Shown here piece after piece: positions 31,590-57,736 of a DNA stretch of 64,000 nucleotides (position 1 is its first letter; each line of letters opens with the position of its first letter). The DNA comes from Halichondria panicea (Eukaryota; Porifera; Demospongiae; Suberitida; Halichondriidae): contig NC_087379.1 of assembly GCF_963675165.1 (NCBI RefSeq), positions 2,360,201 to 2,424,200 on the forward strand. Reading direction: 5' to 3'. The notes beneath the pieces were generated by a model. The model was given only the letters and a program-made list of their open reading frames with translations. It had not been told where the DNA came from and searched no databases. Position numbers and translations under genes: made by a program.

Positions 31590-34500
31590 ATGGCTCTAAA
31601 TCCACAAGCTTTCGAGCAGTTCACACTGAGACAAATTCGCATTACTGAGAATGAGTTAGGACATGGTTCCTACGCTGTTGTCATGGAGCTAGAGTATCGA
31701 GGACTGAAATGTGCCGGCAAGAAGCTTTATCAAGTTCTCTACGAGACTGGAATCGGGCATGCAGCACGAAGGTATCTAGAGGAGTGTCACCTGCTCAGTC
31801 AAACTAGGCACCCCAACATTGTCCAGTTTCTGGGAGTCTGTTTTGAGGAAGGCTCTCAGTTCCCCATCCTAGTCATGGAGTTTCTCCCCATCAACTTGAC
31901 CAGCTGCCTCGAGCGCTATGGTATTCTCCCCGATGAGATCAACTTCTCCATCCTCCATGACGTCTCACTGGGCCTGGCCTACCTCCATGGCCAAACACCA
32001 GTCATTGTGCACAGAGACCTCTCAGCCAACAATGTCCTCTTGTCCACTAACATGACGGCCAAGATATCTGATCTGGGGGTTGCTTGAATATTGAACCTCA
32101 TCCCCCTTCAAGTGAGTCGAATGACGGAGACCCCTGGCACCCCAGCGTACATGCCCCCCGAAGTGATGGTTGCTAACCCCCACTACAACACCAGTGTGGA
32201 TGTGTTCTCCTTTGGGATAATGATGATTCACACCTTCACGGCAGAGTGGCCACTACCAAAGATTGGCCCCAACAGAATCGATCCTGCTAATCCCAATGGT
32301 CTGATACCAGTGACGGAAGCTGAACGACGTGAAGAGTTTCTTCGAAGCATTTCCCCAGACCACCCTCTGATGGACCTCATCATGCGCTGTCTCAGCAACA
32401 ATCCTCAGCAAAGGCCTAAAGCAGCGGAGATAGTGGGTCGGATGGTGGGTGTGGTACTTAAACACCCTCCCTCCTTTGAGAACAGAGTGGAGATGCTCCA
32501 GCGAGTGAGTGCTCTACTGTCAAAGAAGAGGGAGCTTGAGAAGGAGGTTGTGAGGAAGGACTCGGCAATCCAGGAGAAAGCAGGAGATAACGAAGCACTG
32601 GCCGGGGATAAAAGACGACATGAGGAAGAAAGTAAAAACACTGTCGAGCGTATGCAGTTGGTGCACTCTGTGGAAACTGATCAGTTTAAATTGGAGAATG
32701 AAGATCTTAAAGGTAAATTCGAAGAAAGAGAGACAATTGTTATCATGAAAGATGCTAGGATTACTGAGTTAGAACGTCGATGTAAGCAACTCACTGAAAA
32801 AGTGGAGCAGCAAATCAGAGACAAAAACTCTATTATTGCTGACAAAGATTTGACTATTGCTCACAAAGATTCAACTATTGCTCACAAAGATTCGATGCTT
32901 GCCTCCAAATGCACTTCCCTTCAGAAGAAAGAAGCCACCATTCAGATTTTAAATGACCAACTCACCAAAACTAGACACTACCTGACCAGTAAACCACAGG
33001 TGAGCTCATCAACACTGTACTACTAAGTGCATGCACACATCTAAAATAATTATAATACTTAGTGTGACAGGCTCTGGGAAAAGGGCCAAAGTGGCGCAAG
33101 CTATAATTTTTGCGATCTATATACCAGATGATAGGGCAAAGAATTGCCTACGCATTGATATTGTTAGTGTGCACATACCTCGTTCCATTCCTGAGTTATG
33201 CGCGTTGGAAACTCGAAGCTGTAAAACAGCAGTATTGAGAAATGCCCACTCAAAGATTGCTAAATTGGGGAAAGTAAGGTAATGGTGGCTGCTTAGACAA
33301 AGTACTTTATTTGGATTCAGAGCATCAGATTTTGCAGAGAGGTAGTAGCAAGACTGTAGATAACATTAGAAAAAATATTTTTTTATGAGATTATACACTG
33401 TAGCAAGTAATACATGTACTACATGTATGTATGATAGAGAAGAGAGTATCGAACGTAGGCATACTGTACATCAGATGTATGCGGAGAGTAACGTGACCTG
33501 TCACAAGCTTGGAATTTGCACACTGACCAATCTAAGCGTGGGTGATGTAATCTACTTTCAGATACAGGAAGTCACGTTACTCTCAGCATACATCTGATGC
33601 ACAGTATGCCTACGTTCGATACTCTCTCTGTCATAATTATACTCTTGACTGTAGCCTATAAATCTTGATACCAAAATCTGCTCCCAGAGCCTGTCACATA
33701 ATATGATACCGTCTTTTCATAATTATACATAATTATATTCCACCTTACTCTTCCAATACTATGATGTGTACAAAGAAGCGCCTTAAATAACCAGTTTCAA
33801 TTTTTTTCCCACATGAAATATAATGTTCACAAGATATTAACGTTACAATCATTCTAAACTTGATTTGCAGCACACAAGCGATTGACTGTCTGTATTCTCC
33901 AGTCCTTACAGGTTCAGTTGTCCTACAGTCAGTGCTCTACAGCTCCAGTGAATATGACTAGTGGAGTAGCGGTAACCATCAATGGCAAGGTCTACTATGG
34001 TGGAGGAGTCTGTGATGATGATTATGGCAGCTACTGTGTTCACTGTTACGATCTGCCGCAAGATGTCTGGTCAACTCTGCCCAGACTTCCTGTACGGTAT
34101 TTTGGTCTAGGGGAGGTCAAAGGTGAACTGGTAACAGTTGGCGGTGTGACTTCATCCCTCTCTGTATCCAACGTGGTACATGAGTTTGTCAAAGGAAGTA
34201 ACTGGAAACAGACGATCCCACCCATCCCCATAGCGAGGTATTGGCCAGCAGTCATTAGTCTTCCAGCATATCTGGTTGTAGCAGGAGGTGGGTTATTCCT
34301 TGGTGCCCTCACTGATAATGTTGAGATCTACAACATCAGCACCTCCCAATGGAGCGAGACAGACAGACTACCGTATATTTGTAATGACCAAAGAGGAATT
34401 GTCTACAACAACACAGTGTACCTAATGGGGGGATCTGACGGCAAGAATCTAAACAAGGTGTTAGCTACTCAAGTCGACAAGCTCATCTCAATACACCGAC

Positions 34501-34823
34501 AGGATGATGGGAGTGCCAACAAAGCCGACTCTGTCTGGAATACATCATCTAACACACCGTCTTACCACCCCTCCCCTGTAATGATATCAGACACCCTCTT
34601 TGCTGTTGGTGGAATGAATCATGAAGAGGAAGCCACTCAAAGGATCTATGCCTACTCGTCCGCGATGGACTCCTGGCTCTACGTTGGTGATCTACCATCT
34701 CCTATAGCACACGCTGCCACTGTGTCACTGTCTTCAACAGAGTGCCTTTTGATTGGGGGATGGAACAAAGGAGAAAGACAATCAACTGTGTATAAAATTA
34801 GTATCACAACAACCATTAATTGA
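31590..34823 (+). pseudogene. Kinase-coiled coil-kelch gene, copy 1, with in-frame stop
   Basis: Two exons: 31590-32999 (kinase and coiled coil) and 33912-34823 (kelch), joined in phase 0 through KPQ|VQLSYSQCS. The kinase keeps its glycine loop GHGSYAVV, the CAGKK lysine, HRDLSANN and DLG. Codon 166, right after DLGVA, is TGA (32085-32087) where the paralogues have CGA (Arg). The frame is then open to the end, so a C-to-T change at a CpG is the only break seen. If translated as read, the product stops before the activation segment and lacks PPE, the coiled coil and kelch. The kelch exon has six GG-ending blades (YYGGG, TVGG, VAGG, LMGG, AVGG, LIGG). A 5' UTR intron is likely (donor gtaagt 31428, acceptor cacacag 31573-31579). 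Could be a recent pseudogene, an allele or a base error. Confidence 0.85.
33064..33697. mobile_element. 634-bp TIR element in the intron of kinase copy 1
   Basis: Perfect 16-bp terminal inverted repeats gtgacaggctctggga (33064-33079) and its reverse complement (33682-33697). Inside lies a second inverted repeat of nearly 60 bp (about 33442-33497 against 33570-33628, around tatcgaacgtaggcatactg). No coding content. Absent from the introns of copies 2 and 3, so it arrived after the duplications or was lost there. Confidence 0.75.
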
Positions 34824-34893
34824 TTGATAGGTGTATTTTATTGAGTGAATGCTGAAAGGTTAATTTGTGTAGTACCAGCTCCACCCCCTTATA

Positions 34894-35019
34894 TACCGTA
34901 TAGCAGGTAATTTTCGAGGGACAAAATATTCGTGGTCGCTTCATTCGTGGGTAAAATATTGTGGTCAGACCTCCAACCACGAATATTTTGCCCCACGAAA
35001 ACTACACGCTATACAGTAG
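34894..35019. mobile_element. Short MITE of the TATAGC...TTTTCG family
   Basis: Starts taccgtatagcaggtaattt and ends in the inverted form cgaaaactacacgctatacagta; inner arms attcgtggt / accacgaat. It follows the kelch exon of copy 1 by 70 bp. Confidence 0.65.
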
Positions 35020-35039
35020 ATTTCTTATAGATTTCATGA

Positions 35040-35220
35040 TGTGAGACACTATTAAACTGTTCTCCTGGTGTCATCCTGTGCTCTGAGAGTGTGGATGTCC
35101 AGCCTGCCCTACACTGATGAGCATAAGGTATTATTAAGGTTCTGGTCCATCCTAGGATCCTAGGAGTTATAGGTCTCACAGGAGCCACTGTGAACTTGTC
35201 CACTGCATGCCCCGGGCCCA
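35040..35220. pseudogene. Junction of DNAJC25 exon 1 and CWF19L1 exon fragments
   Basis: Bases about 35051-35083 (+) match the signal-peptide region of DNAJC25 exon 1 (ctgttctcctggtgtc, then cctgtgctct) with a small insertion. Directly after, about 35115-35215 matches, on the minus strand, the CWF19L1-like exon at 51375-51480 (atgagcataa, ctggtccatcct, DKFTVAPVRP). The two pieces meet without their own genes, so this reads as a segmental-duplication joint. Confidence 0.65.
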
Positions 35221-35379
35221 GAGGAGGGAGGACACAATTAACCTTAGCTCTAATTAGCTAATTATCGCGACCTTTTAATTACATTCTTTGAATGATTCAT
35301 CTTTTCTTTCTTTATAACCTCTACATATTGGACACAAGAGCTAGAGCCTTTTCTCCTACTGGAGGTACCCCTATGGCCA

Positions 35380-35600
35380 AGTTGTCAGGACCTGAAGGTA
35401 ATAGGACCTATAAGAAGCTCCTCAAGTACTCCTATCTCTAAGATCCCTGTGAGAAGCATCCCAGGCACTCTGATCTTGTCTCTGTGAGAAGCACTCTTGA
35501 TCCTGGAGACAGGATCCCTATGAGGAGCACCCCAGGCACTCCTGTCTCCAAGATCCCTATGAGAAGCACCCCAGGCACTCCTGTCTCTGTGATAAAGCTG
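35380..35600. repeat. Minisatellite, unit about 35-40 bp
   Basis: Degenerate tandem units built on atccctatgagaagcacccc and aggcactcctgtctc. Five or six copies are visible. No gene. Confidence 0.75.
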
Positions 35601-37179
35601 CAACATGGAATTGTTTAGTTCAGAGTGTCTCCAACATGAAGAACATCAATGACACTAACAGTCTCAGCTTCTAGCACCCCTTTATTTGTATGGTTTGCTC
35701 ATAGATAGTAGAGGGGAGGGATTGGAAACATCTCAGGTGACCAATGTATTGCCCTAGAGAATTCTGACACCATGCGTGTTGCATTCCGCAAGTATTGATT
35801 GCGATTGATTGCGAGCCAGATGCAAAGACAAAAGAGAAGAAAGTGAAGAAAACTGCAGTAAGCACTGGCAGAGCTAGTCTGTATGTACATTATCCATAGT
35901 AAATGTATGGTTTACATCATTTACCTAATTTATTTGATCATCAGAGCTCCATGTTATACTGTTTTACATGTATTTAGCTAAGAATTGGTAAGTAAGAAAC
36001 TTTATGGGGGGATGTCTTGAGCTAGGAAGTAGTCATGGTTGCTTGAGAGTGATCAGAGTGTAGAGGGAGCATTGAAATATGCAGTAGGCATAGCCAAGTT
36101 GAGCATTATGCTGTTTAATGTTGAATATTTGCTTTTAAGTGTGAAAACAAGGATTCAAAAGTAACTTATTTTGCAGGGGAGCTACTGGTTAACAATAAAT
36201 TATACATCACTATTGTTTAGTTCTACATGTTGCTTAATGATCCCGATGTGCAGTAAGAAAAGATTTTCCTTGCTAACGTTTATCGTTTTGGAAATATACT
36301 AATTCAAACTTACCCATACATTTTTTCCCAGGGGTACTCAGAAAATCAGAAAATCTGCCAAGACCCTTTTGTATGCCAACGGCAGAGGGGAGGGACACAT
36401 GATAACCCCACTGTTATGTATTATGATTAGTAAATTCTTTTGCAAGAGCTAAACAGTGACCGATGACGAGAATACACCATTGCCTAAAAGGGCGTCAGGC
36501 TCATAAAAATTATGTTTTGTGTTTGTAAACATTTTTATGTAAACATCAAAATTGTGTGATTGTGTGAAAGTCATAATGTTATGAAGCAGTGAACAGTGCC
36601 TAGTACTAGTACCATAAAGTATAAATAATTATTGAGTTCTTCCTAGATTTAATTTCTTTGTAAATGCATGCCTTGTTATTTTCAAGGCTTGGAGAATGTG
36701 TAATCTTCACTCAAGTATTTGCAAAGAGAAAAGTGTCAGTCATTCAGATGTACAACAGCAACCAGAGCAACATTTCTATTGAAATTTGACCAAGTGCAGC
36801 AATAACATGCATCATAATTATAATTATACACGTAATAATAGCTGTTAGCCATAAATATAATGCTCATGATTATCAATGTTCAATTTATAAATAGTTGTGG
36901 TCAGTTATATTGCAGTAATTTGTGACGGAGGAGGAGGATGATCAACTGGCACATTGTAGTATATATTCGCACGTACATTTGATAAAACAGTAATAATTGA
37001 TAGCAACGAGGGATCCATTCGTTTGGGAGAACTTTCCTCCAATTTTACTTGACGGTGTGAAGTGTAAAATGTGCCCACCATATCTCTGAAGAAGCATTCC
37101 ACATCTCACATCTTCAGTTGTGGAAGCTCTTGAATGCTTGATATCTCTTCAGTGCAAGTGAGAGAGATCTTTCCAGCAG
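35601..37179. other. Gene-poor intergenic DNA
   Basis: AT-rich sequence without a convincing coding frame, RNA gene or strong repeat on either strand. Confidence 0.5.
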
Positions 37180-37186
37180 TTCACTC

Positions 37187-37482
37187 CTAGACTCGCAAGC
37201 CGTCACTGTTGCAGGCGAACAGTAGACTGGTCAAACTCCGTGTTGAGACTCGTGTTGCACAGTCAGCATATCAGAAAATATTTTAAGTGGCTGCGGTTTT
37301 CGTGACGTCAGTATACTGCATGTGATACGTAGAGTTTTCTAGTGAAACGTCACTATCATTGATCTTGTGGTAACCGCATGCGGTTAGTTGCCACAAATAT
37401 CGTGGCAAACGTTACACAAGTCTCAACACGGAGTTTGACCAGTCTACTGTTCGCCTGCAACAGTGACGGCTTGCGAGTCTAG
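37187..37482. mobile_element. MITE with perfect 64-bp inverted arms
   Basis: Arms 37187-37250 and 37419-37482 are exact reverse complements, starting ctagactcgcaagccgtcac. The 7-bp direct repeat ttcactc abuts both ends (37180-37186 and 37483-37489), as expected of a target-site duplication. The interior is 168 bp and non-coding. The perfect arms point to recent movement. Confidence 0.85.
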
Positions 37483-37489
37483 TTCACTC

Positions 37490-38240
37490 CTGTGTACCCA
37501 TGGTTAGGCTCTTGAATCAGCCGCCCTTCTCAAGGTCTCTCCCTCCTCAGGTAGGAAGGGCGGCTAATTCATGAGACTGGCATGCAACGGAGAGACCTGA
37601 TTAGCAAAGCATGTTGGCTTTAATTACCGCATTAGTCGCTTCCGGAATTTTGAGTATAAAAAGAGCTGCCCAGGACGCGACCTTTGACCCCGAAAATTTC
37701 ATTCAAGCCTTAGTAACGAGCTGTTTTTTTCTTTTGCGCAAAAGCGCTCAGAACCCATTCATACACACCGTGAACCACTAAAAAAATACACAGAAGGGAG
37801 GGGAATACATTCCTGGTGGGTTTTCTTTTTTACCAGAATCAAAAAGACAAAAATAAAAATTTATGATTATGGCTGACAAATAAATAATGCTTAGGTAGGT
37901 CTGTAGGTACAGTAAAAGGCTATGTCTATACAGCTCCAGGTTAGCTACAGTTAGCATTACTCCAGTGAACTCTTCCAAAGAGTTTTCCTTGATTTCTTGC
38001 ATATAAATAGACGGCATTGAGACTTGAGACTACGCCATTGTGCATTGTAGAAAGTTGGCGAAATTGATTCTGAAAAAGAATTTATATCAGCATTAATTAA
38101 TGTCAGTATATCAAACAAATGTTTGCTATCATTTAGAGTTGTAGAGTGCGGTGCAAACAAGTGAGAGCTCTCCCGGGTAGGGGTTGGTAGTGCTGGCATC
38201 ATTTTGGGGAAGAACTATGCTGGTATCATGGGAACATTAG
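37490..38240. other. Intergenic DNA with one foldback
   Basis: A foldback with arms around agccgcccttc / gaagggcggct spans about 37518-37578; a related piece is at 57818-57836. A TATA-like gagtataaaaagagc occurs at about 37652-37666 without a gene that I can recognise behind it. Confidence 0.4.
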
Positions 38241-38368
38241 TGAGAATAATACGAAGGTTTTGGAAATACAGGTCAGTCGAGTCAGTAGTATAAACATCTG
38301 TAGGCCTGATGAAAGTTGCGAGTACATGGGATGTGGAATAATGTGGGAATGAATAATAGAACTACCAA

Positions 38369-39112
38369 CCCCTAGCAGTGAGTCTTCCTCCAGAAAAGAG
38401 GCCAGAGAGGTAACGATATAATTATTGCTTGATACAGTAGTAAGACTTACATTTTCTGTATACATAGGTTGATGCCAGGAAGACTGTCCTGTCAACAAGC
38501 GACGGTAGTCCTTCAAAGCGACCTGAGAAAAGATGAACGTTATTAATAATAATGACTCCATGTATGAAGGTTATTATACAAATGTCATGGTGGCTATGAG
38601 CATGATGACCCACTAGTAATTGAACAGAAAAAACACCCGTCCATTTTGTCACTAGTCCCCCACCCTTCACCACAGCCATAACACCCAGCTGCTGTTTGTG
38701 CGATATTTAAAACTTACAATAGTAGTACAATCAATTTCCGTTCTTCAGGAGGTGCTTGGACGATACCCGAACCCACTAGGTGTTCCCTGGCCCTACAGAC
38801 TTTCAACACTTCACTTCGTTACTTTATCCATATAAAATGAAATGTTAATGTTAAAAAGCACTCGTAGGTTGATAAAGTCACATTACTGTATACTATATAC
38901 TACTTACTTTTATACTATAGACTAGACTATTTACCTTCTTCAACAACAACATCAGTTTGCCAAATCTTCATGTTTTCCAAGGCCAATGAACCTCTGGCAG
39001 CAAGAAAATTAAACGCTTAGCACTGTCAATTCTATCAACAAAGACCTGCTTGGTATCTTCAGTCTCAAACCAAAGCTCCTGTGGACCCCAGTAGGCTTCT
39101 TCTGAGGTTGAG
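38369..39112 (-). pseudogene. Unrecognised minus-strand gene remnant
   Basis: Several minus-strand stretches look like protein-coding exons. About 39110-38938 reads EAYWGPQELWFETEDTKQVF and, after a 1-base frame change near 39012, LAARGSLALENMKIWQTD, ending at a GT donor. About 38826-38719 reads VLKVCRAREHLVGSGIVQAP and ends at a GTAAG donor. 38522-38451 is flanked by CAG and GTAAGT and reads VALKDYRRLLTGQSSWHQPM. I do not recognise the family. The frame change suggests a pseudogene, but an intron could explain it. Confidence 0.35.
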
Positions 39113-40042: not shown

Positions 40043-40098
40043 TACAGAGGTTTTCAGGTTGCTTGTCACAAGCCTTTGTGAAGGTGAAGTGCGCATGC

Positions 40099-40271
40099 GC
40101 ATATATTCTCCAGACCTAAACCCAGCAGAGGAAGTGTTTAGTGAAGTAAAAAGCATAATGAAACAAAACAATGCTTTATTTCAAGTCACAAGGTTTCTGT
40201 TAGCTACGGCATTCAGCATGGTCACCAAGGAGGACTGCTTAAAGTTTATTACACATTCTGGATATTTATAA
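40099..40271 (+). pseudogene. DDE transposase C-terminal fragment (IS630/Tc1 type)
   Basis: About 57 codons read YSPDLNPAEEVFSEVKSIMK and continue to a stop at 40269-40271. SPDLNPxE is the signature around the last catalytic acidic residue of IS630/Tc1/mariner (DDE_3) transposases. Nothing upstream in any frame supplies the DDE core, so it is a fragment. Confidence 0.75.
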
Positions 40272-40338
40272 AATTATCATACAGGACAACAATTATACAT
40301 GTACAATTTTTTATTGAAATTCTGTTAACTGGAAAAAA

Positions 40339-41270: not shown

Positions 41271-41394
41271 TTTTCCTCTTCTATCTATGATTTTCCAAGC
41301 CACGTGTCTCAGTGGAGTCCAAAGTTCATACAGTAGAATGATTGATACGCATGCGCGGACTCTACGTGACAAGCAACCTGAAAACCTCTGTAAG

Positions 41395-41758: not shown

Positions 41759-44700
41759 ATGGCTGTAAATCCACAAGCTTTCGAGCAGTTCAAGCTGAGA
41801 CAAATTCGCATCACTAAGAATGAGTTCGGACGAGGTTCCTACGCTGTTGTCTTGGAGCTAGAGTATCAAGGACTGAAATGTGCCGGCAAAAAACTTTATG
41901 AGGTTCTGTACGAGACTGGAATCGGGCATGCGGCACAAAGATATCTGGAGGAGTGTCGCCTGCTCAGTCAAACTAGACATCCCAACATTGTCCAATTTCT
42001 GGGAGTGTGTTTTGAGGAGAGCTTTCAGTTCCCCATCCTAGTCATGGAATTCCTCCCCACCAACTTGAGCAGCTGTCTCAAGCGCTATGGTATTCTCCCC
42101 GATGAGATCAACTTCTCCATCCTCCATGACGTCTCACTGGGCCTGGCCTACCTCCATGACCAAACACCAGTCATTGTGCACAGAGACCTCTCAGCCAACA
42201 ACGTTCTCTTGTCCACCAACATGATGGCAAAGATATCCGATCTGGGGGTTGCTCGAATTTTGAACCTTACCCCCCTTCAAGTTAGTCGATTAACGGAGAC
42301 CCCTGGCACCCCAGCGTACATGCCCCCCGAAGTTATGGTTGCCGACCCTCACTACGACACCAGTGTGGATGTGTTCTCCTTTGGGATCATGATGATTCAC
42401 ACCTTCACAGCAGAGTGGCCACTACCAAAGATTGGCCAGACACGAATCAATCCTGCTAATCCCAATGGTCTGATACCAGTGACAGAAGCTGAACGACGTG
42501 AAGAGTTTATTCGAAGGATTCCTCCAGACCACCCTCTGATGGACTTTATCATGCGCTGTCTCAGCAACAACCCCCAGCAAAGACCTACAGCAGCGGAGAT
42601 AGTGAGTCGGATGGTGGGTGTGGTACTTGAATATCCTCCCTCTTTTGAGAACAGAGTGGAGATGCTCCAGCGAGTGAGTGCCCTACTGACAGAGAAAAGG
42701 GAGCTTGAGGAGGAGGTTGTGAGAAAGGACTTGGCAATCCAGGAGAAAGCAGGAGAGATCGAGGTACTGGTGGAGAAGAAAAGACGACAAGAGGAAGAAA
42801 GTGAAAACACTGTCGAACGTATGCAGTTGGTGCACTCTGTGGAAGCCGATCAAATTAAATTGGAAATTGAAGATCTTAAAAGTCAACTCGAAGATAAAGA
42901 GACAATTGTTAACACGAAAGATGAATTTATTATATCAAGAAATGCAAGGATTGTGGAATTAGAAACTCAATGTCAACAACTCACTGAGGAGGTGGAGCTA
43001 CAAATTGCTCACAAAGATTCGATCATTGCCTCCAAAGATACTTCCCTTCATAAGAAAGAAGCCACCAATCAGAGTTTGAACAACCAACTCACCAAAACCC
43101 GAGACTACCTGACCAGCAAACCACAGGTGAGTTGATTAACACTGTATACCATAAAATTAGGCCTGGGATCGAGGCTAATGCAAAGCTAGTGGGGGGTATG
43201 GTTTCCTGGTATTGAACCACAAAAATATTATACGAGCATTTCTGCTGAGGGCTCTGGAGCCAAATATATAGCGAAAATTTTCACCCATGAACATTTCTCG
43301 CTATACAGTAAATGATTTGCTGTACAGTCAAGTTAAATAGGGCATTGAAATGATCTTTTTGTTGAGAAATTTTTTTGATTAGCCCCCATACCCCATCGAA
43401 ATTCCTGGATCTGCCCCTGTACAGCCAATGGCTCATAATTATGCCTCGAGGCGTAGCCACACGAGGGATACGGTAAAGCTGACTGTGTGTGTGTATTCCA
43501 GCTGTAACTGCTCAACGGTTGCAATGTGACGAAAACTAACAGCTTCTATAGGCTTCTAGCCACGTTCTCTTGGATTTCGATTCGTGGATTAGCTAACTAA
43601 AGCTTCTTTCTCGAGTTACGGCTAGTTTGACTCACCCTTTAGAATCTTTCATCTGTTCGCACAAACTTTCTATTTAACACATGAGTTAGCCTTGCACTAA
43701 AGCGCTAGCTTTTCGTTAGCTACTAGAGTCAGAAAAGATCTGTTAGAACAGCTAACTAGCTAGCCATTGTGAACTTGAACTCTTTGGACACACCCTTTAA
43801 TTATTCCTGTGAATGCAATGCGCATGCGCGCTCATTCCCACATGTTAGAGAATCCAGTGGCAGAATCAACTTACTTGAGGTCCTAGTATAGTATACCGGT
43901 AAGCCACAAAACAATGATAACATAATTATAGACTAGATAACAATAGATTCATGTACACAGTCTTTTCTTCTCAGTATTAATATAGATAGATACGTACATA
44001 CTTCCTGCTTGTTTATATAATAATACTGTCTGTGCTATACTACTGTCTGTGCTTAAATTCTCTCTTAGTCTGTGCCTTTGGCAAAGGTTTGCTCCCACTG
44101 TTTGGCTACAGGCCATTTAAATAACATGCAGTTGCTTCAGTATCGTTGATTTAAGTCTGTGATTTTTTTTTTCTTTAAAATTTTTTATGCAAAAAAGCAT
44201 ACAGGGTTTACAACAAATAGCGCTAGGCTAATAAAACGTTGTCTACCTGGGAACGAACAGACGAACAAGGCAGTAAAAAAAAGAGAAAAAAAAAGAATGT
44301 TGTTCACAGCATGCATGCATGCAGTAACTACGGAGTGCAGGTATACAAACGGTGCAGGTGGTTTTTTAAAATGAGCGGGGTCTGTGCCGAGACAATTTCA
44401 TCAGGCAAGGCATTCCAATGTTTGATGACATTTATGAAATATGAAAATTTGTGTGCATCTGTTGGTACAAACGGGGTGAAGAGTTGGACTGAGTTTAAAC
44501 TTCTTGGAGATGGTTGTGGGTGGGGAGTGAAGGCTGTTGGAGGGATGCATAATTCTTTTCTTAGGATTTTAAAGCAAAGCTTCAACTTTTGCATGCGTCT
44601 TCGGATAGACAGTGGCTTTAGGTCCAGGGAGGAGCACAGAAATGGGTAGCTTGATGACCATGCAGTCTTGAGTTATAACTCTTCCCGCACATTTCTGAAC

Positions 44701-46323
44701 GTTTTCCAGTAATTTTGTGGATTTGAGTTGGTGGGGGTCCCAAACTGCCCCGCAGTAGTCTAGCTTCGGGAGTACAGTGGTTTGATATCTTGTGGCGAAG
44801 GTGTTTTGGGGCGTCACGAAAGTTCCTATGTATTCTACCTAGCAGTTGTTTGGAAGACTTGGAGATGTGATTGAATTGTACTGGACTATACTGGCTATAA
44901 TTTGACAAAGGTTTAATTTGCTCCCACTGTTTGGCTACAGGCCATTATTTTAAAACGATCAGTATACACTATACATGTAGTAACTGTGAACACCCCTTTC
45001 TTGTGAAATAATCAAAGCACATTGCAAATTATTTACCTCTTCTATAACACTCTAATACTTTTGAGCGAAAGCAAAAACATGGCGAGAGGCATTAGCAAGC
45101 GCACGCTTGCAACACTCGTTATGACAGCACTTTAAATGTCTTATTGCAGTTAGGTCATGCAAAGTCAATTTGTAATTTTTTGTGTGGCCTTAGAGAGTAT
45201 AAGTGCAATAAGTTTTTATTTCACACTTTTTTCTAATCCTCATGATTCATAGGCATCAAGCCATCTGAAAAATGCTTGTAGCTAGCTAGCTTTTTCACTT
45301 ATACTAGATCTACTTTCTAGTTTCATGTTAACATGAGATTAGCGTTACTGTACATATCCCCTAAATAAATCAACACACAAGTTATTGACCGTCTATATTC
45401 TCCAGTCCCTACAGGTTCAGTTGTCCTACAGTCAGTGCTCCGAGGCTCCAGTGGAGATGTCTGGGGGACTAGCAATAACCATCAATGGCAAGGTCTACTA
45501 TGGTGGGGGAGTCTGTGATGGCGTTGATGACATGTTTTATGTCCACTGTTACGATCCGCCACAAGACTTTTGGTCAACTCTGCCCAGACTTCCTGTATGT
45601 TACTTTGGTCTAGGAGAAGTAAAAGGTGAACTGGTAGCAGTTGGCGGTAGGGATCCATCTCGCTCTAAATCCAACGTGGTACATGTGTGTACCAAAGGAA
45701 GGAACTGGAAACGGACGATTCCACCAATGCCCACAGCGAGGAGTTGGCCAGCAGTCGTTAGTCTCCCAACACATCTGGTCGTAACAGGAGGTCGGTTGAG
45801 CTCTGGTGGCTACACTGATAATGTTGAGATCTACAGCATCAGCACCTTTCAGTGGAGCGAGACAGACAGACTACCATATGTTTGTATGGACCAAAGAGGA
45901 ATTGTCTACAACAACACAGTGTACCTACTGGGCGGATCTGACAACAATAATCTAAATGAGGTGTGTGCTGCTCAAGTCGACAAGCTCATCTCAGTAGACC
46001 GACAGCACGATGGTAGTGTCAACAAAGCTGACTCTGTCTGGAATACAATATCCAATACCCTGTCTTACCGGCCCTCCCCTGTAACGATATCCGACACCCT
46101 CTTTGCTGTTGGTGGACTGATTCGTAAGGAAGCAACTCAAGCGATCTACGCCTACTCATCCTCCATGAACTCCTGGCTCTACATTGGTGATCTACCATCT
46201 CCTGTGGCACACACTGCCACTGTGTCACTGTCTCCAGCAGAGTGCTTTGTGATTGGGGGAAGTAACAAATCAAAAAGACAATCTACCGTGCATAAAATTA
46301 GAATCACAGCAACTATTCCTTGA
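41759..46323 (+). CDS. Kinase-coiled coil-kelch protein, copy 2
   Basis: Two exons, 41759-43126 and 45415-46323, phase 0, 758 aa. The kinase domain (about residues 15-290) has GRGSYAVV, the CAGKK lysine, HRDLSANN, DLG and TPGTPAYMPPE, so all core catalytic residues are present. It fits the TKL/tyrosine-kinase-like range; HRDLSANN lacks the lysine usual in Ser/Thr kinases (HRDLKxxN), so substrate type is open. A coiled coil (about 300-455) follows with only about two KDSIIAS-type heptads. Six kelch blades (YYGGG, AVGG, VTGG, LLGG, AVGG, VIGG) form a predicted propeller of 302 aa. No signal peptide or membrane segment, so cytoplasmic. The ATG at 41759 matches the paralogues; a 5' UTR intron ends at cacacag 41741-41747. 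The 2.3-kb intron holds retrotransposon debris. Confidence 0.85.
44328..44908 (-). mobile_element. Decayed non-LTR retrotransposon fragment
   Basis: Minus-strand pieces in different frames spell the region just after the reverse transcriptase core: LPKLDYCGAVWDPHQ, STKLLENVQKCAGRVI and, further on, FINVIKHWNALPDEIV. These are typical of jockey/CR1-like non-LTR elements. Several frameshifts; no 5' half present. It lies in the intron of kinase copy 2. Confidence 0.8.
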
Positions 46324-46336
46324 TTATTATGGCTCG

Positions 46337-47780: not shown

Positions 47781-47938
47781 AACACTCGTGATAATTATAG
47801 AGTTAAACATGCCAAACTGATGAGATAGTAGTTGCATGAAAGGTGTAGAGGTTTTCGATCCCCCCAAAACAAATTTTATGGACCCTTCAACAAAATTTGG
47901 ACCCTCCACCATTAAAACTCTGTCTATAGGGTCTTTAT

Positions 47939-48680: not shown

Positions 48681-48711
<31 letters not shown>

Positions 48712-50825
48712 CTAAACAAAGAGAAACATCGATCACTAAAAGGCTTAGAGAATGGTACTTATATAGATCCCATTTTAGCAGGGAACTATAATTATGAGCT
48801 ATATAATTTTTATAGTACCAGTACTATATATGGGCTACAAAGTGCAACATCAACATTACATTTTTATTGTGATTTACAAGGATACACAGTCATTATAATT
48901 ATAGCTAGATGCTTCGTCTAGTAACACAACCTTACAAGTACACACAGTTTATGTTGAAGTCATAATTATGAATAATTATAGTACACACAGTTTATTAATA
49001 ATTATAGTAACGATGATGCAGTGCATCATTAAAAATTAAGTATTTGCGTTCTGCAGTGCCGCTTTTATCTCACTCTTGCAGCTACCAGTAGCTAGACTAA
49101 GTGCTCTAGTGCAGTTACTAAGTAACTATCTATTAACAGTTTTTGCTATGCATGATTCTCAAGATACGGAAACTGCCTTCAATGCGAGTTTTTATGTAAA
49201 CTATAGCCAGAGCGAAGCTTTAATGTTACTTGAGGCTTGTTGGTTTCAGAGTCTTCTTTGTGTTAATATATAGCCTAGCTTGCTTAGCACTATTCTAAAT
49301 CAGTTATAGGCCTCGTCCAACGGTCACTATGTAATAGTTAGATAATGGGCATGAGGTATCTATGTGTTATAGTGTCCCTCATCCCTCGGGCTACGCCCTC
49401 GAGCTTTGGGACACTATAACCATAGATACCGAATGCACATTTAGATCCCAAAACCTATTGGCTACTAGAAATGCACTAGCTTAGCAACAGTCAACCTATC
49501 TATATAAACAGTCAACCTAGCAACTGCACCTGATTCATTTCTTTTGAAAATTAATATCTGGCATCTCTGTGGCTCTACTAAATCTTTGTCTACGGTATAG
49601 CGGGTCAGTTTCGTGGGGTAAAAAATTCGTTCAACTAGAGAAACGGTAGTTTTCGTGAGTAAAAATTTCGTTTAGTCTCGTGGCTGCACAGCATTCCTAC
49701 GTTCAGATAAGCCACGCCTATAGAGTAGTGTTTGTGTCTGTTTGTTTGTGTCTGTGTCTGTCTGTCTGTCTGTGTAGACTGCTACATGCTGCTCAAGGAT
49801 GGATCAAGTGCAAGTAAGAGTTTCTATTGGCTTCTAGTCATGTTTTCTTAGATGATTTTAATTCGTGGATTTGCAACATAAATTAATGCTTAATTCGTTC
49901 TCGAGTTACGCCTAGTTTTGCTTACTTGGAATGCCATTGCAGCCTTTTCAGAAGAGCACGTAGCCAAACAGAGGAGTAGGAAGATGTTTTTGTAAGGGGC
50001 TGCTTTACAAATCTGGGGGTCCGGGGGCTTGCCCCAGGAAAATTTTGGCACTCTACATTCCCGGAGATTAATTCTGAGCAAATTTGGTATAAAATTATCA
50101 GTATCACAATGTTTATGCTATATACTTTAAATCTATAGAATCTGTTAAGTGGGTATGAATATACAATAAAAAAGATTGCATTGCATGTGTCATTGTACTT
50201 CGGAGGAACGTTTCAATCTTCGCAGTGAAGAAAACGAACGTTTTAACTACAGCATGGATCCAATTACACTTGATCTATAGTCTAGCTACCCTCTTTAGTA
50301 GCTGTTCATGGCTACCATTGATGTCAAAAATGAGAGGAGACTTGCTTGTTGCAGATTCGCAATGTGCTTGCTCTTTATAAGAGATATCTACGATGTGGTT
50401 CATCTAGCTGACCTTTGTACTGTGTACGTAACTATGCTAGTGCTTAGTAACTAATAGCTAGCTAGCTACTAGCTGGACTTCTAGCTAGCTGCTCCGAACT
50501 TCATGGAGCAAGTAGGTAAGGTAGCTTGAGATAAGGGGGTGCTCCAGCATCCTGAGCACCCGTGCTTCCTACGCCACTGCCAAACTTGGTACTCTACTTA
50601 GTAGTTAGCTCTGCACTAGAACGCTAGCTATTGGTAGCTGCAAGAGTGAAAAGAGAGCTACAAGGCTATATACAGTATAGAGCCGCAGCCATTAATTTAG
50701 CTTTTAGACTTCGTACTTTTGGCATCCTTTTTAGCATCAATCATAGTCAATTCATTTCCCACTCCTTGAGTTTTCCTATAGATTCAGCGTAAAAACATTA
50801 TGATATCTGTGTGTATTACTTTATG
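48051..50825. other. Intergenic region with repeats
   Basis: No gene recognised. It contains further TAGCCTCG pieces, a GT array (48681-48709), a foldback with arms 49355-49379 and 49408-49430 (ggtatctatg ... catagatacc), a tgtctg repeat (49735-49775), and a segment at 49825-49925 related to 28530-28610 and 43540-43630. Confidence 0.5.
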
Positions 50826-52640
50826 TTATGTACCTTTGACACATTCAGCACCCGCGGTGCTTTCATTACTTACAATAAAGTAAGTTTTCCTTACCAAAGA
50901 TTTGACTAGTTCAGTGTAGGGACAGTTGGTGGCAGTGGGTGGTTGCTGAGTCAGCTTTTTCTCGTCCATGGAGCTCATGGGTGTGACAGAGAATGCATAC
51001 AGGTACTGCAGGTATGAAGATAATGTAATCATTAGTAATACTAATGGGACTAGAATGATTTCAACTGACTCTTTTCTTCTTGTCTGGATTTCCAACTTTA
51101 AGAATCGTATCACATGATGTGGCTTGCCTTGGAGGATTTTGTGATTCCTGCATGAAATGAAGCACAATACAGTTAGCATCAAAAGTTGTGGAGGTATTAC
51201 TGTGTAGGGATTTAAATGAGGCCATTAAAAATGAGAGATATAAGACGAATGTATAAATAATAACGTTAAATGACTTTCTGAAAGCTTAGAAAGATGCTTT
51301 TCAGATGATGTGTGGAGCTGCAAAATGGTAGCCAGGCTTGAGACACATGGCCAGTTTACTCAGAGGTCCATCCTGCATGAGCATAAACTATATGTTATTA
51401 AGTACTGGTCCATCCTACAATAACTGGGAGCTAGGTCTCACAGGAGCCACTGTGAACTTGTCCACTGCCCCGGGCCAATCAGAGGTGAGGAGAATGTCCA
51501 CTCCACGGTAGCCCTCTCCACTGCACTGACCCTCCAGCCAGGACACATCAGAGCCAGTGAGCCAGTGAAATATTGTCACTAGAGGGAGAAACAAAAACTA
51601 CTTCTCCCAGTTATTCGGAAGAGAACTTACCAATAGGTTATCTCCCTTATTTGATACTGATAGTTCCTCCGTTGGTATAGCTCCCACTAAGATAGGCCAC
51701 CCTCAGACCACTGGACGCACTGTACACTCCACGCTGACCTGTAATGGAGTGTGACTCATGTGTGTACTGATAGAACATGCATACACTGTACCTAGACATG
51801 TGACATTGGGGCAGAGCTCTCCTCCATCACGTGACAAGTCTCCATAGAACTGGGCATGCTCAGTTGAACACGAGCCAAGTCGGTAGAGGCACTGTGCATG
51901 GGGGTGTAATAAATGTTACGTTAGCAGTGGCGGATCCAGGAAAAATGAAAGGGGGGTTCCAAACTAACGAGCGCGCAGCGCGAATTTTTTTTGTTACGCC
52001 CACTTCCTGTCACACGGACTAGGGAAAAATCCCATACTCTGCCAGGGGAAGTCCCATAATAGACTTGCGTAGAGCTAGCTAGCTGCCACGAACAGTCAAC
52101 TAGCTAGCCTAGGCTAACCTGAACACTCCTTTGGCAGTTGATACATCAAAACAACAGGTTAAATCATTGAATCAAATTACAATAGCTACAAAAACTGATA
52201 AATAGCTAGCTGGTGTCATTAAGCTTCTTCTAAAGTTAGTTCAAAAGGGGGGGTCAAGGGACCCCATGGACCCTCCTCTGGATCCGTCACTGGTTAGAGG
52301 AAGGTTATTTCAACATTGCTTAATTACGTACCTATTTCCACCCCCTCCCGATACTTGCTCCACTCCTCCTAGATCCTGGCAGTCAGAGCTAAAGAAAGAT
52401 ACAACACACAATAGCAGCTACATAAAGGGACAATAAATGCACTGGCACTGCATGCAGTGTATACGTGTGCATCCATTGAATCAATGAATGTATCTACCTC
52501 AAAATCTTTGTTCTTGGAGAGGATGCTCTGGACTTTGCTATTAACAGTTGCTTGAAGTGACCCTCCACATCTCCACACACCGACACCAGACTGAGTGAGG
52601 GGGAGAAGGTAGTTAATTCTAGGTGAGACAGCGACGTTCA
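50826..52640 (-). pseudogene. CWF19L1: CWF19L1 pseudogene, minus strand
   Basis: Five exon-like pieces follow the order of CWF19L1, a spliceosome-associated metallophosphatase-like/CwfJ protein. About 52575-52487: CGDVEGHFKQLL, then after a 1-base loss NSKVQSILSKNKDFE, ending at a GTAGAT donor. About 51890-51793: LPTWLVFN, a 1-base gain, then AQFYGDLSRDGGELCPNVT. About 51738-51655: GQRGVYSASSGLRVAYLSGS. About 51545-51420: GEGYRGVDILLTSDWPG. About 51010-50873: YLYAFSVTPMSSMDEKKL. The two frameshifts, the lack of the exon between the last two pieces, and no CwfJ C-terminal domain mark it as broken. It faces away from kinase copy 3, whose start is about 700 bp off. Confidence 0.75.
51925..52292. 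mobile_element. CAGTGGCGGATCCAGG-type MITE
   Basis: Ends cagtggcggatccagg and the inverse cctctggatccgtcactg flank a 330-bp interior. gttag abuts both sides (51920-51924 and 52293-52297). Ends of this kind are common in hAT-like non-autonomous elements. It lies between the first two pieces of the CWF19L1 pseudogene. Confidence 0.75.
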
Positions 52641-52666
52641 TGATCCGAGACATTCAAATACAAACC

Positions 52667-52785
52667 ACACTCTCTACTATACCCTGATCCTAGATATATC
52701 CTGGAAGAGAAGGGCGTGTGTCGTAAAACCACACTCTCTACTATAGTACTATACTCTGATCCTGAAAGAGAACGGCGTGTGTCGT
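52667..52785. repeat. Tandem duplication of about 60 bp
   Basis: ccacactctctactata ... gaacggcgtgtgtcgta occurs twice head to tail with small differences (52667-52727 and 52729-52785) in the spacer upstream of kinase copy 3. Confidence 0.8.
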
Positions 52786-53047
52786 ACCATGACCTTTTGC
52801 TTCTGCCTTATCTGCATAGATCCAGAGATTGATCTGCATTGTGTTGTCTGGCGTGGCATCTTCACCAAGATCGATCAAGCAAGGTTTCTTTACAGGTAAG
52901 TACGGTTAGTTTAAATATACAATACTGTAACTGCATATATGGTCCTGTAAGCTAGGCTGTATAGATAGATCTACCTCAAGTATTTTCTAGTGTACATTCC
53001 GTGAATGCAAAGCAAGGATTCTTTTTATTGCGATTGCTTGAATCAAC

Positions 53048-53290
53048 TACCGTAGCGTATTATCACTATAGCGCGAAATTTTCAAGGCACTTATATTTCA
53101 GCATTTTGTTGCACAATGTTCGTGGAAATGACTGCTTACCGGAAGCCACGCGTATTAATCTTTGCACGTTATAGCAGATCATTCTAATTAAAGAACAATT
53201 TTGTGGACTTAATTTTCGTGTACGTGTAAGATTGCTAACCCCAGAAATCCGCGAAAATTAAGCCCCTCAAAAATTTCGCGCTATATGGTA
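53048..53290. mobile_element. MITE of the TATAGC family upstream of kinase copy 3
   Basis: Starts taccgta...ctatagcgcgaaat and ends in the inverse aatttcgcgctatatggta. The whole element is the reverse complement of the copy at 56096-56314, sharing cttccggtaagcagtcatt-type interior sequence. Confidence 0.75.
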
Positions 53291-53352
53291 TATATTATAA
53301 TAGCTGCCTATTTAATATTGCATGCTTTTCTATTCACACAGTATCGAAGACA

Positions 53353-56300
53353 ATGGCACAAGCTTTCGAGCAGTTCACTCTGAGACAAATTCGCATCACT
53401 GAGAATGAGCTGGGACATGGTTCCTACGCTGTTGTCATGGAGCTAGAGTATCGAGGACTGAAATGTGCCGGCAAGAAGCTTCACCGAGCTCTGTACGAGG
53501 CTGGAATCGGGTATGCAGCACGAAGGTATTTGGAGGAGTGTCGCCTGCTCAGTCAAACTAGGCACCCCAACATTGTCCAGTTTCTGGGAGTCTGTTTTGA
53601 GGAAGGCTCTCAGTTCCCCATCCTAGTCATGGAGTTCCTCCCCACCAACTTGACCAGCTGTCTCGAACGCTATGGTATTCTCCCCGATGAGATCAACTTC
53701 TCCATCCTCTATGACGTTTCACTGGGCCTGGCATACCTCCATGGCCAAACACCAGTCATTGTGCACAGAGACCTCTCAGCCAACAATGTCCTCTTGTCCA
53801 CCAACATGACGGCCAAGATATCCGATCTGGGGGTTGCTCGAATCTTGAACCTCAACCCCCTTCAAGTGAGTAGAATGACGGAGACCCCTGGCACCCCAGC
53901 GTACATGCCTCCTGAAGTGATGGTTGCCGACCCCCACTACGACACCAGTGTGGATTTGTTCTCCTTTGGGATCATGATGATTCACACCTTCACAGCAGAG
54001 TGGCCACTACCAAAGATCGGCCCCACCAGAATCAATCCTGCTAATCCTGACATACTGATACCAGTGACGGAAGCTGAACGACGTGAAGAGTTTCTTCGAA
54101 AAATTCCCCCAGACCACCCTCTGATGGACCTCATCATGCGCTGTCTCAGCAACAACCCTCAGCGAAGGCCTAGAGCAGCGGAGATAGTGGGTCGGATGGT
54201 GGGTGTGGTACTTGAACACCCTCCCTCCTTTGAGAACAGAGTGGATATGCTCCAGCGAGTGAGTGCCCTACTGACAGAGAAGAGGGAGCTTGAGGAGGAG
54301 GTTGTGAGAAAAGACTCAGCAATCCAGAAGAAAACAGGAGAGATCGAAGTACTGGCGGAGGAGAAAAGACGACAAGAGAAAGAAAATGGAAACTTTGTCG
54401 AACATATGCAGCTGGTACACTCACTCGAAATTGACCAGCTCAAAATGGAAAATAACAAACTTGAAACTGAACGAAGTGTGGAGGTAGAGGACCTCAGAGT
54501 TGAATTGGAGCTCAAAGAATCATTGGCTGTCACAAAAAACTCTACCATTGCTAGTTTAGAAACTCGATGTAAGCAACTCACTGAAGAGGTGGAGCAACAA
54601 ATTGCCAACGTCAACTACACTCACAACGAGCTTGCATCTAAAGCTACGAAAATTGTTCAACTGGAAACAGAGCAAGCAGACAAAAACTCTATTATCGCTT
54701 ACAAAGATTCGACTATCGCTCGCAAAGATTCGATCATTGCCTCCAAGGATACCTTCCTTCAGATGAAAGAAGCCACCAATCAGAGTTTAAACGACCAACT
54801 CACCAAAACCAAAAACTACCTGACCAGCAAACCACAGGTAAGCTCATCAACACTCAACACTGTACAACTAAGTGCACACATCTAAAATCTGATACCATCT
54901 TTTCTTTTACTATAGTGCCAGTAGTTTATACTTTTCCAATCGATTGACAAGTTTTTAATCGATAGGATATGTGATTCTAAGAAACGACATTGCCTCAATA
55001 CTTAGCATCTAATCTATACCTTTACGCTTACAGCAATACTATACTATAAGCACCACTTCAAAAGAAGGTGCCGATCTTGAATACCGGTTTTTATTTGTGT
55101 GACTGGCTGGATACTAGCAAGGGCGTATAAAGAGAAGAGGGCATGCAACTTGCACTATTCTCAGACTCATACTGTTACAGTAGCTATTTTTAGAACTGCC
55201 CACAAAACGCCCATGCGTAACCTTTGACCGCGTAATAATGGTAAATTAGAATCTGCTGCACTTGCTAGCTAGCTCGATGATTGCATCATTCACCATTCAG
55301 CATTGACACAAAACCCAGCAATACCGGTATGGTTCGTACTAGCAGTATCAAAAGCAGAGGCAAAGCATCCAATTAACAGCACCAAACCTGCTCGAGGAAG
55401 TCCTGTTCCCTGCATTACTGATAGAGATCTACCAGTAGTTACCCGAGGCGCGTGGGCGGCCACGAGTGTAGTAGCTAGTCGTCTGGTTTGTTTCTCTGTA
55501 TCTGAGTCTGCTTACCTGGATTCCATAACACTGCGTTTACAGCATGGATAGCCTTCACACAACAAGTTTTAAGTTAATAGCTTCTTAGCTTCGTTGTCAA
55601 ATAAAGCTAAGAAGCCTCACACGCTGGCTGCTTGGCTGCATGCGTCTTTTATTCGAGGTGCGAACTTTACAGCTGAAGTGATCCCGTGTACCAGGAACAA
55701 TGGAACAGGGTCAAGCTAAAGGTTAATTTGCTAATCCTGATCCCTGAGGAGGTACGACAGTTTTTTCCATTGTGGAGACGTTTGCTTACATGGCAGTTTA
55801 CCGCGACTTTGCCATGACAAACTTTAGGCATGTAGAAAGTTTATAACTAACTGTTTAGCTATAATACATAGTAACTCCGTAAATAACACCGCTCACTTGT
55901 TTGTCCGTATACTGTATAGCTGGTTATTGAAACGAAAATTTAGTGTCTAGAAAATTGGGTATTGAAATCTCTCTACTGTAGGGGTGTGGTTATTTTAACC
56001 TCCATCCTCAAAAATATAATCCTCGAAATGTTTGGTTTGGGCAATCCACAAAAATTGAAAATAACCCGCTATACTGTATATGATTCTATTTGTAGTACCG
56101 TATAGCGCGAAATTTTTGAGGGGCTTAATTTTTGCGGATTTCGTGGGTTAGCAATCCTACAAGTCCACGAAAATTGTTCTTTAATTAGAATTATCTGCTA
56201 TATAACGTGCAAAGATTTAAAGGCCTGGCTTCCGGTAAGCAGTCATTCCGCGAACATTGTGCAACAAAATGCTTTTAGAGGCCATTCCACGAAATATAAG

Positions 56301-57736
56301 TGCCTATACAGTATATCCGGCATCTGATATCAAGTATGCCGATCATGTACGGTACATAGCGAGTTGCATGCCGTTTTCTCTTTATACGCCCTTGATACTC
56401 TAGTCAGTATCACTTAGTACTATAATTGCTGTTTAATGTTTCGCGAATTGCTCAAACTAAACATTTGTTTCCGAAAATAGAGGTTCAAATAACTATACAC
56501 CCCTGCAGTAGAGAGGTATTTCAATATCTAGAGGTAAACCATGATTCCCACGAAAATCACGAAAATAACCAGCTATGTGGTAATAGCATGTGACCAAGTT
56601 GCCTATATTGCATAAAACACGGGGGGATTCTCATGCTATAGATCACAGCGACCCCTTACCAAACCATGCCTCGAGGCTACGCGACCGTGTAATAATATAA
56701 CACGGAAAGGACTCTACAACTTTTATTATACCCTTGTAAGATTTAGCGTTACATGTACATTTCAAAGTGTCCTAAATTATTTGCAGCATACGAAATGACT
56801 CTCTGTATAATTCTCCAGTCCCTACAGGTTCAGTTGTCCTTCAGTCAGTGTTCTGAGGCTCCAGTGGAGATGTCTGAGGGACTAGCAATAACCATCAATG
56901 GCAAGGTCTACTATGGTGGAGGAGAATGTTATGTCGGTGATGACGAGTTCTGTGTCTACTGTTACAATCCACCACAAGACGTCTGGTCAACTCTGCCCAG
57001 ACTTCCTGTACGATGGTTTGGTCTAGGAGAGGTCAAAGGTGAACTGGTAGCAGTTGGTGGTGTTGATTCATCCCACTCTAAATCCAACGTGGTACGTGTA
57101 TTTAATGAAGGAAAGAACTGGAAACTGACGATCCCACCTATGCCAACAGCGAGGGATTCACCAGCAGTCGTCACTCTCCCAACACATCTGGTTGTAGCAG
57201 GAGGTGATGTGGGCCGTGTTGTCTACATTGATAATGTTGAGATCTACAACATCAGCACCTCCCAGTGGAGCGAGACAGACAGACTACCGTATGCTTGTGA
57301 GGACCAAAGAGGAATTGTCTGCAACAACACAGCATACCTAATGGGGGGATATCACGGCAATTATATAAACAAGGTGTTAGCTGCTCAAGTCGACAAGCTC
57401 ATCTCAGCAGACCGACAGGATGATGCGAGTGCCAACAAAGCCGACTCTATCTGGAATACAATTCCCAACACACCATCTTACCGCCCTCTCCCTCTAACGA
57501 TATCTGACACCCTCTTTGCTGTTGGTGGAAGGGATTGTGAAAGTGAAACCACTCAAAGAGTCTACGCCTACTCATCCTCGATGGACTCCTGGCTCTACGT
57601 TGGTGATCTACCATCTCCTGTGGCAGACGCTGCCACTGTGTCACTGTCTCCAACGGAGTGCCTTGTGATTGGGGGAAGAGACGAAGAAAAAAAATCAACT
57701 GCGTATAAAATTAGTGTCTCAACAACTATTTTTTGA
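53353..57736 (+). CDS. Kinase-coiled coil-kelch protein, copy 3
   Basis: Two exons, 53353-54837 and 56828-57736, phase 0, 797 aa, the longest intact copy. Kinase: glycine loop GHGSYAVV at 21-28, lysine at 41/42, HRD at 138-140, N145, DLG 158-160, PPE 186-188. A long coiled coil (about 295-490) ends in repeats KNSIIAY, KDSTIAR, KDSIIAS, KDTFLQM. Exon 2 gives a six-bladed kelch propeller (GG after each blade), entered through KPQ|VQLSFSQCS as in the paralogues. No targeting signal is seen, so a cytoplasmic kinase that may dimerise by the coil and bind partners by kelch is inferred. The 5' UTR intron (donor gtaagt 52900, acceptor cacacag about 53335-53341) is shared with copies 1 and 2. The 1,990-bp intron is packed with MITEs. 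Confidence 0.87.
55101..56412. mobile_element. Nested inverted-repeat elements in copy 3 intron
   Basis: Outer arms around tagcaagggcgtataaagag (about 55101-55155) and its inverse (about 56355-56412) bracket about 1.3 kb. Inside are two smaller TATAGC-type elements, 55909-56080 and 56096-56314. A further one at about 56440-56581 is an inverted relative of 55909-56080 (agctggttatt, ctctctactg-aggggtgt). No coding content seen. Confidence 0.55.

Follow-up and report, generated by a model that had tools for sequence, protein, structure and literature searches.

The window analysed here is a 64,000-nucleotide stretch of the genome of the sponge Halichondria panicea (131 Mb in 39 contigs, labelled C1, C3, C6 and so on below), spanning C3:2360201-2424200 on contig NC_087379.1. 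Its plus strand carries three tandem copies of a two-exon gene, in which exon 1 encodes a kinase of tyrosine kinase-like (TKL) type followed by a charged linker and exon 2 an entire kelch propeller of six blades. Copy 1 comprises a short piece of 5′ untranslated region (UTR) running from the conserved acceptor (TTCACACAG) to the ATG (31579–31589), exon 1 (31590–32999) and an open exon 2 (33912–34823; Kelch_1, 8e-21). In copy 2 the open exon 1 (41759–43126; Pfam PF00069, 1.4e-42, and PF07714, 8.2e-36) is joined across a phase-0 GT..AG intron (43127–45414) to an open exon 2 that ends in a stop codon (45415–46323; Kelch_1, 1.3e-20). Copy 3 has the same arrangement, with an open exon 1 (53353–54837; PF00069, 6.6e-41), a phase-0 intron (54838–56827) and an open exon 2 (56828–57736; Kelch_1, 4.7e-21), and the first exons of the three copies are spaced by ∼10.2 and 11.6 kb. 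Upstream of them, also on the plus strand, lie the last ∼80 codons of a further exon 2 (29448–29703; repeat family D7), 84–90% identical to the window kelch exons by blastn. The first-pass annotation had counted three full-length copies and a fragment; three two-exon genes are indeed present, but copy 1, although full length, carries one in-frame stop (codon 166) inside the kinase, copies 2 and 3 being open throughout, and the fragment is a frame-broken kelch 3′ end.

In all 23 genes for which splicing was read (the three in the window and 20 fetched from elsewhere), the junction falls in phase 0 at ..TSKPQ-V.., with the donor AG-GT(G/A)AG and the acceptor (C/T)TACAG-GTTCA, hyphens marking the exon boundaries; the introns between exons 1 and 2 reach 3.5 kb. 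A second acceptor lies 11–13 nt upstream of the ATG in all 23 genes and belongs to an intron in the 5′ UTR, the first exon being non-coding. The corresponding donor, ACAG-GTAAG, is recognised within 1.2 kb in 16 of the 23, copy 1 not among them. The shared phase-0 junction and the conserved 5′ UTR intron had both been proposed in the first-pass annotation, and both hold up.

The catalytic motifs of the kinase are intact. Across 21 aligned exon-1 sequences (copy 1 and one duplicate being left out), the glycines of the glycine loop, Lys41, Glu61/Glu62, the HRD motif at 138–140, Asn145, Asp158 and a PPE motif are all invariant, with Asp158 in a DLG sequence in place of DFG. The best solved relatives found with phmmer are CTR1, WNK (WNK3), CERK1, TNNI3K, TAK1 and RIPK2; judged by these, the kinase is better described as TKL-like than as a tyrosine kinase (TK), so that only the first half of the label TKL/TK-like, given at first pass, is kept. 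In exon 1 of the window genes Pfam finds nothing but kinase families, with no BTB, BACK or death-fold domain, and there is no NACHT, NB-ARC or LRR match in the window proteins; NCBIfam returned nothing beyond remote matches to bacterial kinases and mutarotases, all under the cut-off and set aside. The highest 19-residue Kyte–Doolittle mean in three genes is 1.4, and no long hydrophobic, membrane-spanning or signal-peptide-like stretch is seen. Exon-1 lengths leave ∼136–235 residues for the charged linker, which had initially been read as a long coiled coil. Its heptad peak, at 3.45–3.55 residues, is no better than that of shuffled sequences in four genes (54, 68, 117 and 369 of 500 shuffles reach it), and a coiled coil in the linker is plausible at most.

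Exon 2, already described at first pass as holding the whole propeller, is predicted to fold in this way. The AlphaFold2 model of the copy 3 kelch region is confident, with a mean predicted local distance difference test score (pLDDT) of 89.8 and a predicted template-modelling score (pTM) of 0.89, and contains repeated strand groups. Twelve hypervariable sites are found in the kelch exon, two in each blade, at residues 17/33, 62/79, 110/127, 158/175, 219/235 and 266/283 (copy-2 numbering). In copy 3 their codons start at 56876, 56924, 57011, 57062, 57155, 57206, 57299, 57350, 57482, 57530, 57626 and 57677 on the plus strand, the last of them (57677–57679) encoding a residue after GG. The first-class site of each blade immediately precedes the strand running up to the GG doublet (in blade 3 it comes after Arg109); the second-class site comes directly after GG, 16–17 residues further on. 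In the secondary structure of the copy 3 model each pair brackets one hairpin of its blade, the first-class site before it and the second-class site after it, which would place both at the open end of that hairpin. The hairpin turns at the opposite end of the blade vary little, with a mean proportion of non-synonymous differences (pN) of 0.07.

Comparison with Keap1 suggests that these positions line a binding pocket. A single offset (318) on the Keap1 chain fits Phe478, Arg483, Ser508, Tyr525, Ser555 and Tyr572; Ser508 and Ser555 correspond to the first class of sites, and Phe478, Tyr525 and Tyr572 to the second, with 17 residues between them, and the remaining blades are assigned by analogy. 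Inhibitor contacts in the Nrf2 site of Keap1 include Tyr334, Ser363, Arg415, Arg483, Ser508, Tyr525, Ser555, Tyr572 and Ser602 (PMC6891428). Among 22 unique spliced genes from C3 (L023 being dropped as identical to L021, and copy 1 kept with its stop as X), all 22 pockets are distinct, differing on average at 9.5 of the 12 residues. Twenty-nine kelch sites in this set have pN >0.3, and the twelve pocket sites are among them; of the extra variable sites, 83, 85, 129–132, 177, 179 and 238 lie in the pocket loops and 40, 297 and 299 elsewhere.

The window genes are three of at least 56 kinase–kelch pairs on the same contig, and are outliers of a larger family. A kinase exon query has at least 121 matches in the genome (93 of 883 candidates scored) and a kelch exon query at least 130 (130 of 458 candidates scored), these counts being lower bounds. 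For pairing, 58 of the 121 kinase matches (those on C3 with at least 64% identity, second fragments of an exon excluded) and 60 of the 130 kelch matches (those on C3) were used, and the count excludes a further pair, on C16 (2922575 and 2921075). Fifty-six of the 58 kinase exons are each followed by a kelch exon of their own, on the same strand and no more than 8 kb downstream. The main array, at C3:0.87–1.71 Mb, lies 0.65–1.5 Mb from the window and holds 47 of the 58, with 26 minus-strand kinase exons in its left part and 21 plus-strand ones in its right part. Stops are found in five of the 58 kinase rows. Among the spliced genes 22 of 23 are open, a rate that is not a fair sample since the 20 fetched genes were chosen from long stop-free exon-1 matches.

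Two further features of the C3 units may be recorded. L021 and L023 (C3:1004000-1012700 and C3:1025500-1034700), 22 kb apart, have identical coding sequences, which could reflect a very recent duplication, gene conversion or an assembly duplicate. Twelve of the 20 fetched units (L009–L028) share a 30-base stretch, beginning CACACAGAGCATGG, that lies 3′ of the kelch exon and may be either a repeat element or a promoter for the unit that follows.

A second kelch family is found on C1 (mostly at 15.48–17.39 Mb), C6 (0.42–0.80 Mb) and C28, with one exon on C12. It has at least 131 kelch exons (131 of 453 candidates scored), which are 82–100% identical to one member, and in the C1 array the left half is on the minus strand and the right half on the plus strand. 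Between the C3 and C1 families the kelch regions are ∼30% identical and the kinases 32%. The C1-type arrays also hold kinase exons (at least 140 matches, fragments and distant kinases included) and a small helical domain (at least 151 matches). Both genes that were read, L029 and L030, have the order small domain, kinase, kelch, and the coordinates at a third locus agree (17112183, 17112876 and 17114705). L030 matches Pfam Death at 3.5e-14. The L029-type domain is under the Pfam cut-off for Death (E ∼0.001), and a profile of 20 L029-type copies picks out FADD death domains in 11 of its 13 PDB matches (best E 7e-4). From these profile matches, a death-fold domain, presumably spliced to the kinase, can be placed ahead of it in the C1/C6 sister family. 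The genome as a whole contains at least 148 matches to the Death domain (150 of 503 candidates scored), with none in 14 control genomes, which indicates an animal, and at least 102 to NACHT (102 of 265 candidates scored). In L030 a CARD-like helical stretch, recognised by eye and with no Pfam match, precedes the Death domain (L030:702-1451) and has 13 matches in the genome. A third kinase–linker–kelch family, on C11, has kelch exons that are 34–55% alike, with one at 86%; it was not used in the test for recent selection because it is too old.

The two younger families were compared codon by codon, the C1 set consisting of 22 sequences (L029, L030 and L032–L051) taken from the higher-scoring kelch matches. 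Among the 22 C3 genes the ratio of non-synonymous to synonymous substitution rates (dN/dS, NG86 method) is lowest in the kinase (0.28), intermediate in the linker (0.42) and highest in the kelch region (0.96); in C1 the kelch value is 1.02. Kelch values close to 1 are averages over a scaffold under constraint and a small number of extreme sites. At the twelve pocket sites dN over whole-exon dS is 9.1 in C3 and 9.4 in C1, and pN is 0.54 and 0.51 as against 0.074 and 0.068 at the other kelch sites, values reached by none of 20,000 label permutations in either family (figures flattered by the choice of sites, as discussed below). The other kelch sites are constrained, with dN over kelch dS of 0.75 and 0.78.

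An overlap test with its cut (pN >0.3) set regardless of position is free of bias in the picking of sites. Over 289 aligned sites it takes 27 from C3 and 28 from C1, of which 17 are common to both where 2.6 are expected (Fisher p = 1e-13). Site rates are also correlated between the families (Spearman 0.43, n = 289; 0.36 when the twelve sites are removed). Eleven of the twelve C1 pocket sites are exact alignment equivalents of those in C3, and site 158 is one residue off the alignment. The pocket is thus diversified at the same sites in two families. Shared variable pocket sites in two families with conserved scaffolds are not what plain tandem duplication would lead one to expect.

We consider it probable that these genes form a germline repertoire of cytosolic receptors, in which a diversified kelch pocket is coupled to signalling through the kinase. 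On one face of the C-terminal propeller, two residues from each blade would together form a pocket, which selection on amino acids would diversify among paralogs. In the cytosol, the linker, perhaps as a coiled coil, would hold subunits together, possibly as dimers, while the pocket may bind a peptide or small molecule, presumably of non-self origin. Ligand binding or clustering would then gather the N-terminal TKL kinases, whose proximity could allow mutual phosphorylation and hence a signal, and, to judge by the sister family's death-fold domains, the wider system may feed into death-domain signalling. We infer a role in innate immunity because that sister family, in the two genes read, has a death-fold domain and because the evolutionary signature matches that of known non-self receptors. 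The first-pass annotation had suggested a fast-evolving recognition-type family, and the binding-face variation in two families, the large expansion and the sister-family death-fold domains bear this out. The chances seem to us evenly balanced for the broader proposal of an undescribed class of animal non-self receptors, comprising ∼200 or more germline cytosolic kinase–kelch genes (56 pairs and at least 131 sister kelch exons), some of them with death domains; each would have its own twelve-residue pocket, convergent with the fungal HNWD propellers and diversified by selection at the same sites in at least two families.

Several observations weigh against a receptor repertoire of this kind. 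The window family itself has no death domain by Pfam; in the sister family only 4 of 21 sequences scanned match Pfam Death at E 0.01 or better, and AlphaFold2 gives a poor model for the L029-type domain (pLDDT 51.8). Sites with pN >0.3 are not confined to the pocket, there being 17 more in the kelch region, 16 in the linker and five in the kinase. The twelve sites were picked with each family's variability in view, which flatters the pN, permutation and dN figures given for them. In the twelve codons a minimum-path count made without a tree puts the ratio of non-synonymous to synonymous differences at neutrality, with values of 0.96 for C3 (p = 0.62) and 1.56 for C1 (p = 0.087), because synonymous differences are raised at these codons too: their proportion, pS, is 0.34 and 0.24 in the two families, as against 0.09 and 0.08. 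The rise comes mainly from CGN arginine codons, which at the pocket are synonymously diverse in 72 of 172 pairs in C3 and 42 of 107 in C1, compared with 0 of 342 and 75 of 1206 elsewhere. Raised synonymous differences together with a neutral minimum-path ratio would fit codon-level hypermutation, and sequence alone would not separate selection from mutation directed at codon positions 1 and 2.

These last points bear on the possibility that there is no selection for diversity at all, and that the kelch exon drifts under relaxed constraint, as its average dN/dS of about 1 might imply, or that the twelve codons are mutational hot spots, as their synonymous diversity might. We disfavour both forms and judge them very improbable. 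The remaining kelch sites are constrained, and the two families agree on which sites vary. Codons one to three away from the twelve sites are barely above background. Transversions predominate among third-position differences at the twelve sites in C3, 736 to 248 transitions, as compared with 1600 to 3306 elsewhere (pairs not independent). In fourfold-degenerate codons other than CGN, pairs that share their first two bases differ in the third in 3 of 78 cases in C3 and 2 of 32 in C1, which is at background (0.074 and 0.057 elsewhere), these pairs again not being independent. At many pocket sites codon positions 1 and 2 have a mean diversity of 0.52–0.62, out of a maximum of 0.75, and the silent positions are ordinary apart from CGN. 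It is also barely credible that the kinase and kelch exons are separate adjoining genes. The introns are long, and the open frame of exon 2 extends some codons upstream of its acceptor, with in-frame ATG codons there in copy 3; however, the same phase-0 donor and acceptor recur in every one of the 23 genes, and order and strand are constant in 56 of the 58 C3 kinase exons.

The other alternatives accept the diversified pocket and concern what it binds. Each paralog might recruit a different endogenous substrate to its kinase, making the family a set of diversified kinase–substrate adaptors, a signalling repertoire with no non-self role. The intact and constrained kinase suits such a function, and the variable sites correspond to the Keap1 pocket for an endogenous partner, Nrf2 (PMC6891428). 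In our judgement, though, endogenous partners rarely drive so many pocket changes among recent copies, twice over, and the presence of death-fold domains in the sister family speaks for defence or death signalling. We think this explanation unlikely. Allorecognition or the recognition of symbionts would use the same mechanics as the proposed receptors, with ligands that are same-species markers of self and non-self or resident microbes rather than pathogens. The genes sit in large arrays, and the fungal HNWD family, which has the closest signature, includes genes for vegetative incompatibility (PMC4986451); the present evidence does not tell these classes of ligand apart, and we regard this variant as distinctly less probable still. 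Our preferred interpretation remains a repertoire of cytosolic receptors that signal through their kinases.

Other reading frames flank the array within the window. Among the long open frames at 9863–18764, ankyrin is matched weakly (0.0083) and a UvrD-like helicase at 1.3e-5 (PF00580), and a frame of 1500 residues has no Pfam match; we take these to resemble TRANK1-type proteins. Downstream of copy 3 are a DnaJ domain match at 58858–59163 (3.7e-7), part of a J-protein gene, and a frame at 61045–61944 that matches the FAN1 helix-turn-helix (PF21315, 4.9e-8) and would belong to a FAN1-like DNA-repair nuclease.

A literature search, largely without subscription papers, found no description of kinase–kelch arrays. 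The sponge immune surveys count NACHT, SRCR, TIR and similar domains, and the portions of them consulted describe no kelch kinases. Of the published material on sponges, one kelch-motif gene was down-regulated on microbial challenge in each of two species (PMC6208332), and kelch-type propellers and kinase domains are among the families that change with niche in Mycale grandis (PMC11000336); the architecture is not stated in either case. Scans of prokaryotic and viral collections showed no relative with the kinase–kelch architecture, and no viral contig was matched. The prokaryotic candidates L073 and part of L074 proved, by eye, to be bacterial kinases without kelch, and a third locus, L072, from a planctomycete metagenome-assembled genome, was left out.

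Repertoires that combine a fixed scaffold with a hypervariable pocket are known in antibodies, plant and animal NLRs, TRIMs and the fungal HNWD proteins. Among these, finTRIM and TRIM5-like proteins have an effector domain, a coiled coil and a C-terminal β-domain with variable loops, and are encoded in tandem arrays, with RING/B-box and B30.2 domains in place of the kinase and kelch regions found here. Keap1 and the other BTB–kelch (KLHL) proteins share the six-bladed kelch propeller and the matching pocket positions. They are, however, BTB/BACK adaptors of ubiquitin ligases, whereas the kinase–kelch proteins have no BTB or BACK match, carry a kinase and have diversified in tandem. RIP kinases and IRAK/Pelle likewise have a TKL-type kinase, and RIPK2 is among the solved relatives, but the death-fold domain is found in the sister family only and not in the window family; to our knowledge no RIPK or IRAK has a kelch propeller. 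The NLRs of sponges and other animals are, similarly, large lineage-specific expansions of intracellular receptors, whereas here the sensor would be a kelch propeller and the effector a kinase. Dysidea avara has 126 NACHT–LRR genes, 25 of them with DEATH, and a word search of the main text of that survey did not find the word "kelch" (PMC12909245). Some plant NLRs carry kelch or kinase modules as integrated domains (PMC5819176).

The nearest system known to us in evolutionary signature is that of the fungal HNWD (HET–NACHT–WD40) genes, represented by het-d, het-e and het-r of Podospora anserina, which also form a gene family and join a recognition β-propeller to an effector domain. In these proteins positive diversifying selection acts on four positions per WD repeat, located on the interaction surface (PMC4986451). 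In the kinase–kelch family, too, positions on the presumed interaction face are hypervariable and apparently positively selected, although the minimum-path count is not above neutral. The two systems differ in that HNWD proteins are fungal, use WD40 repeats with NACHT and HET domains, and have repeats homogenised by concerted evolution, whereas the kinase–kelch proteins use kelch repeats and a kinase, the blades of one protein differ from each other, and the variation lies between paralogs. If our interpretation is correct, the kinase–kelch genes would add a new type of sensor to these recognition repertoires, a kinase-linked kelch family of such size in an animal. They would also suggest that pocket and kinase signal are directly connected, and would offer a system open to testing, as the twelve residues can be listed for each gene on a scaffold that is largely conserved.

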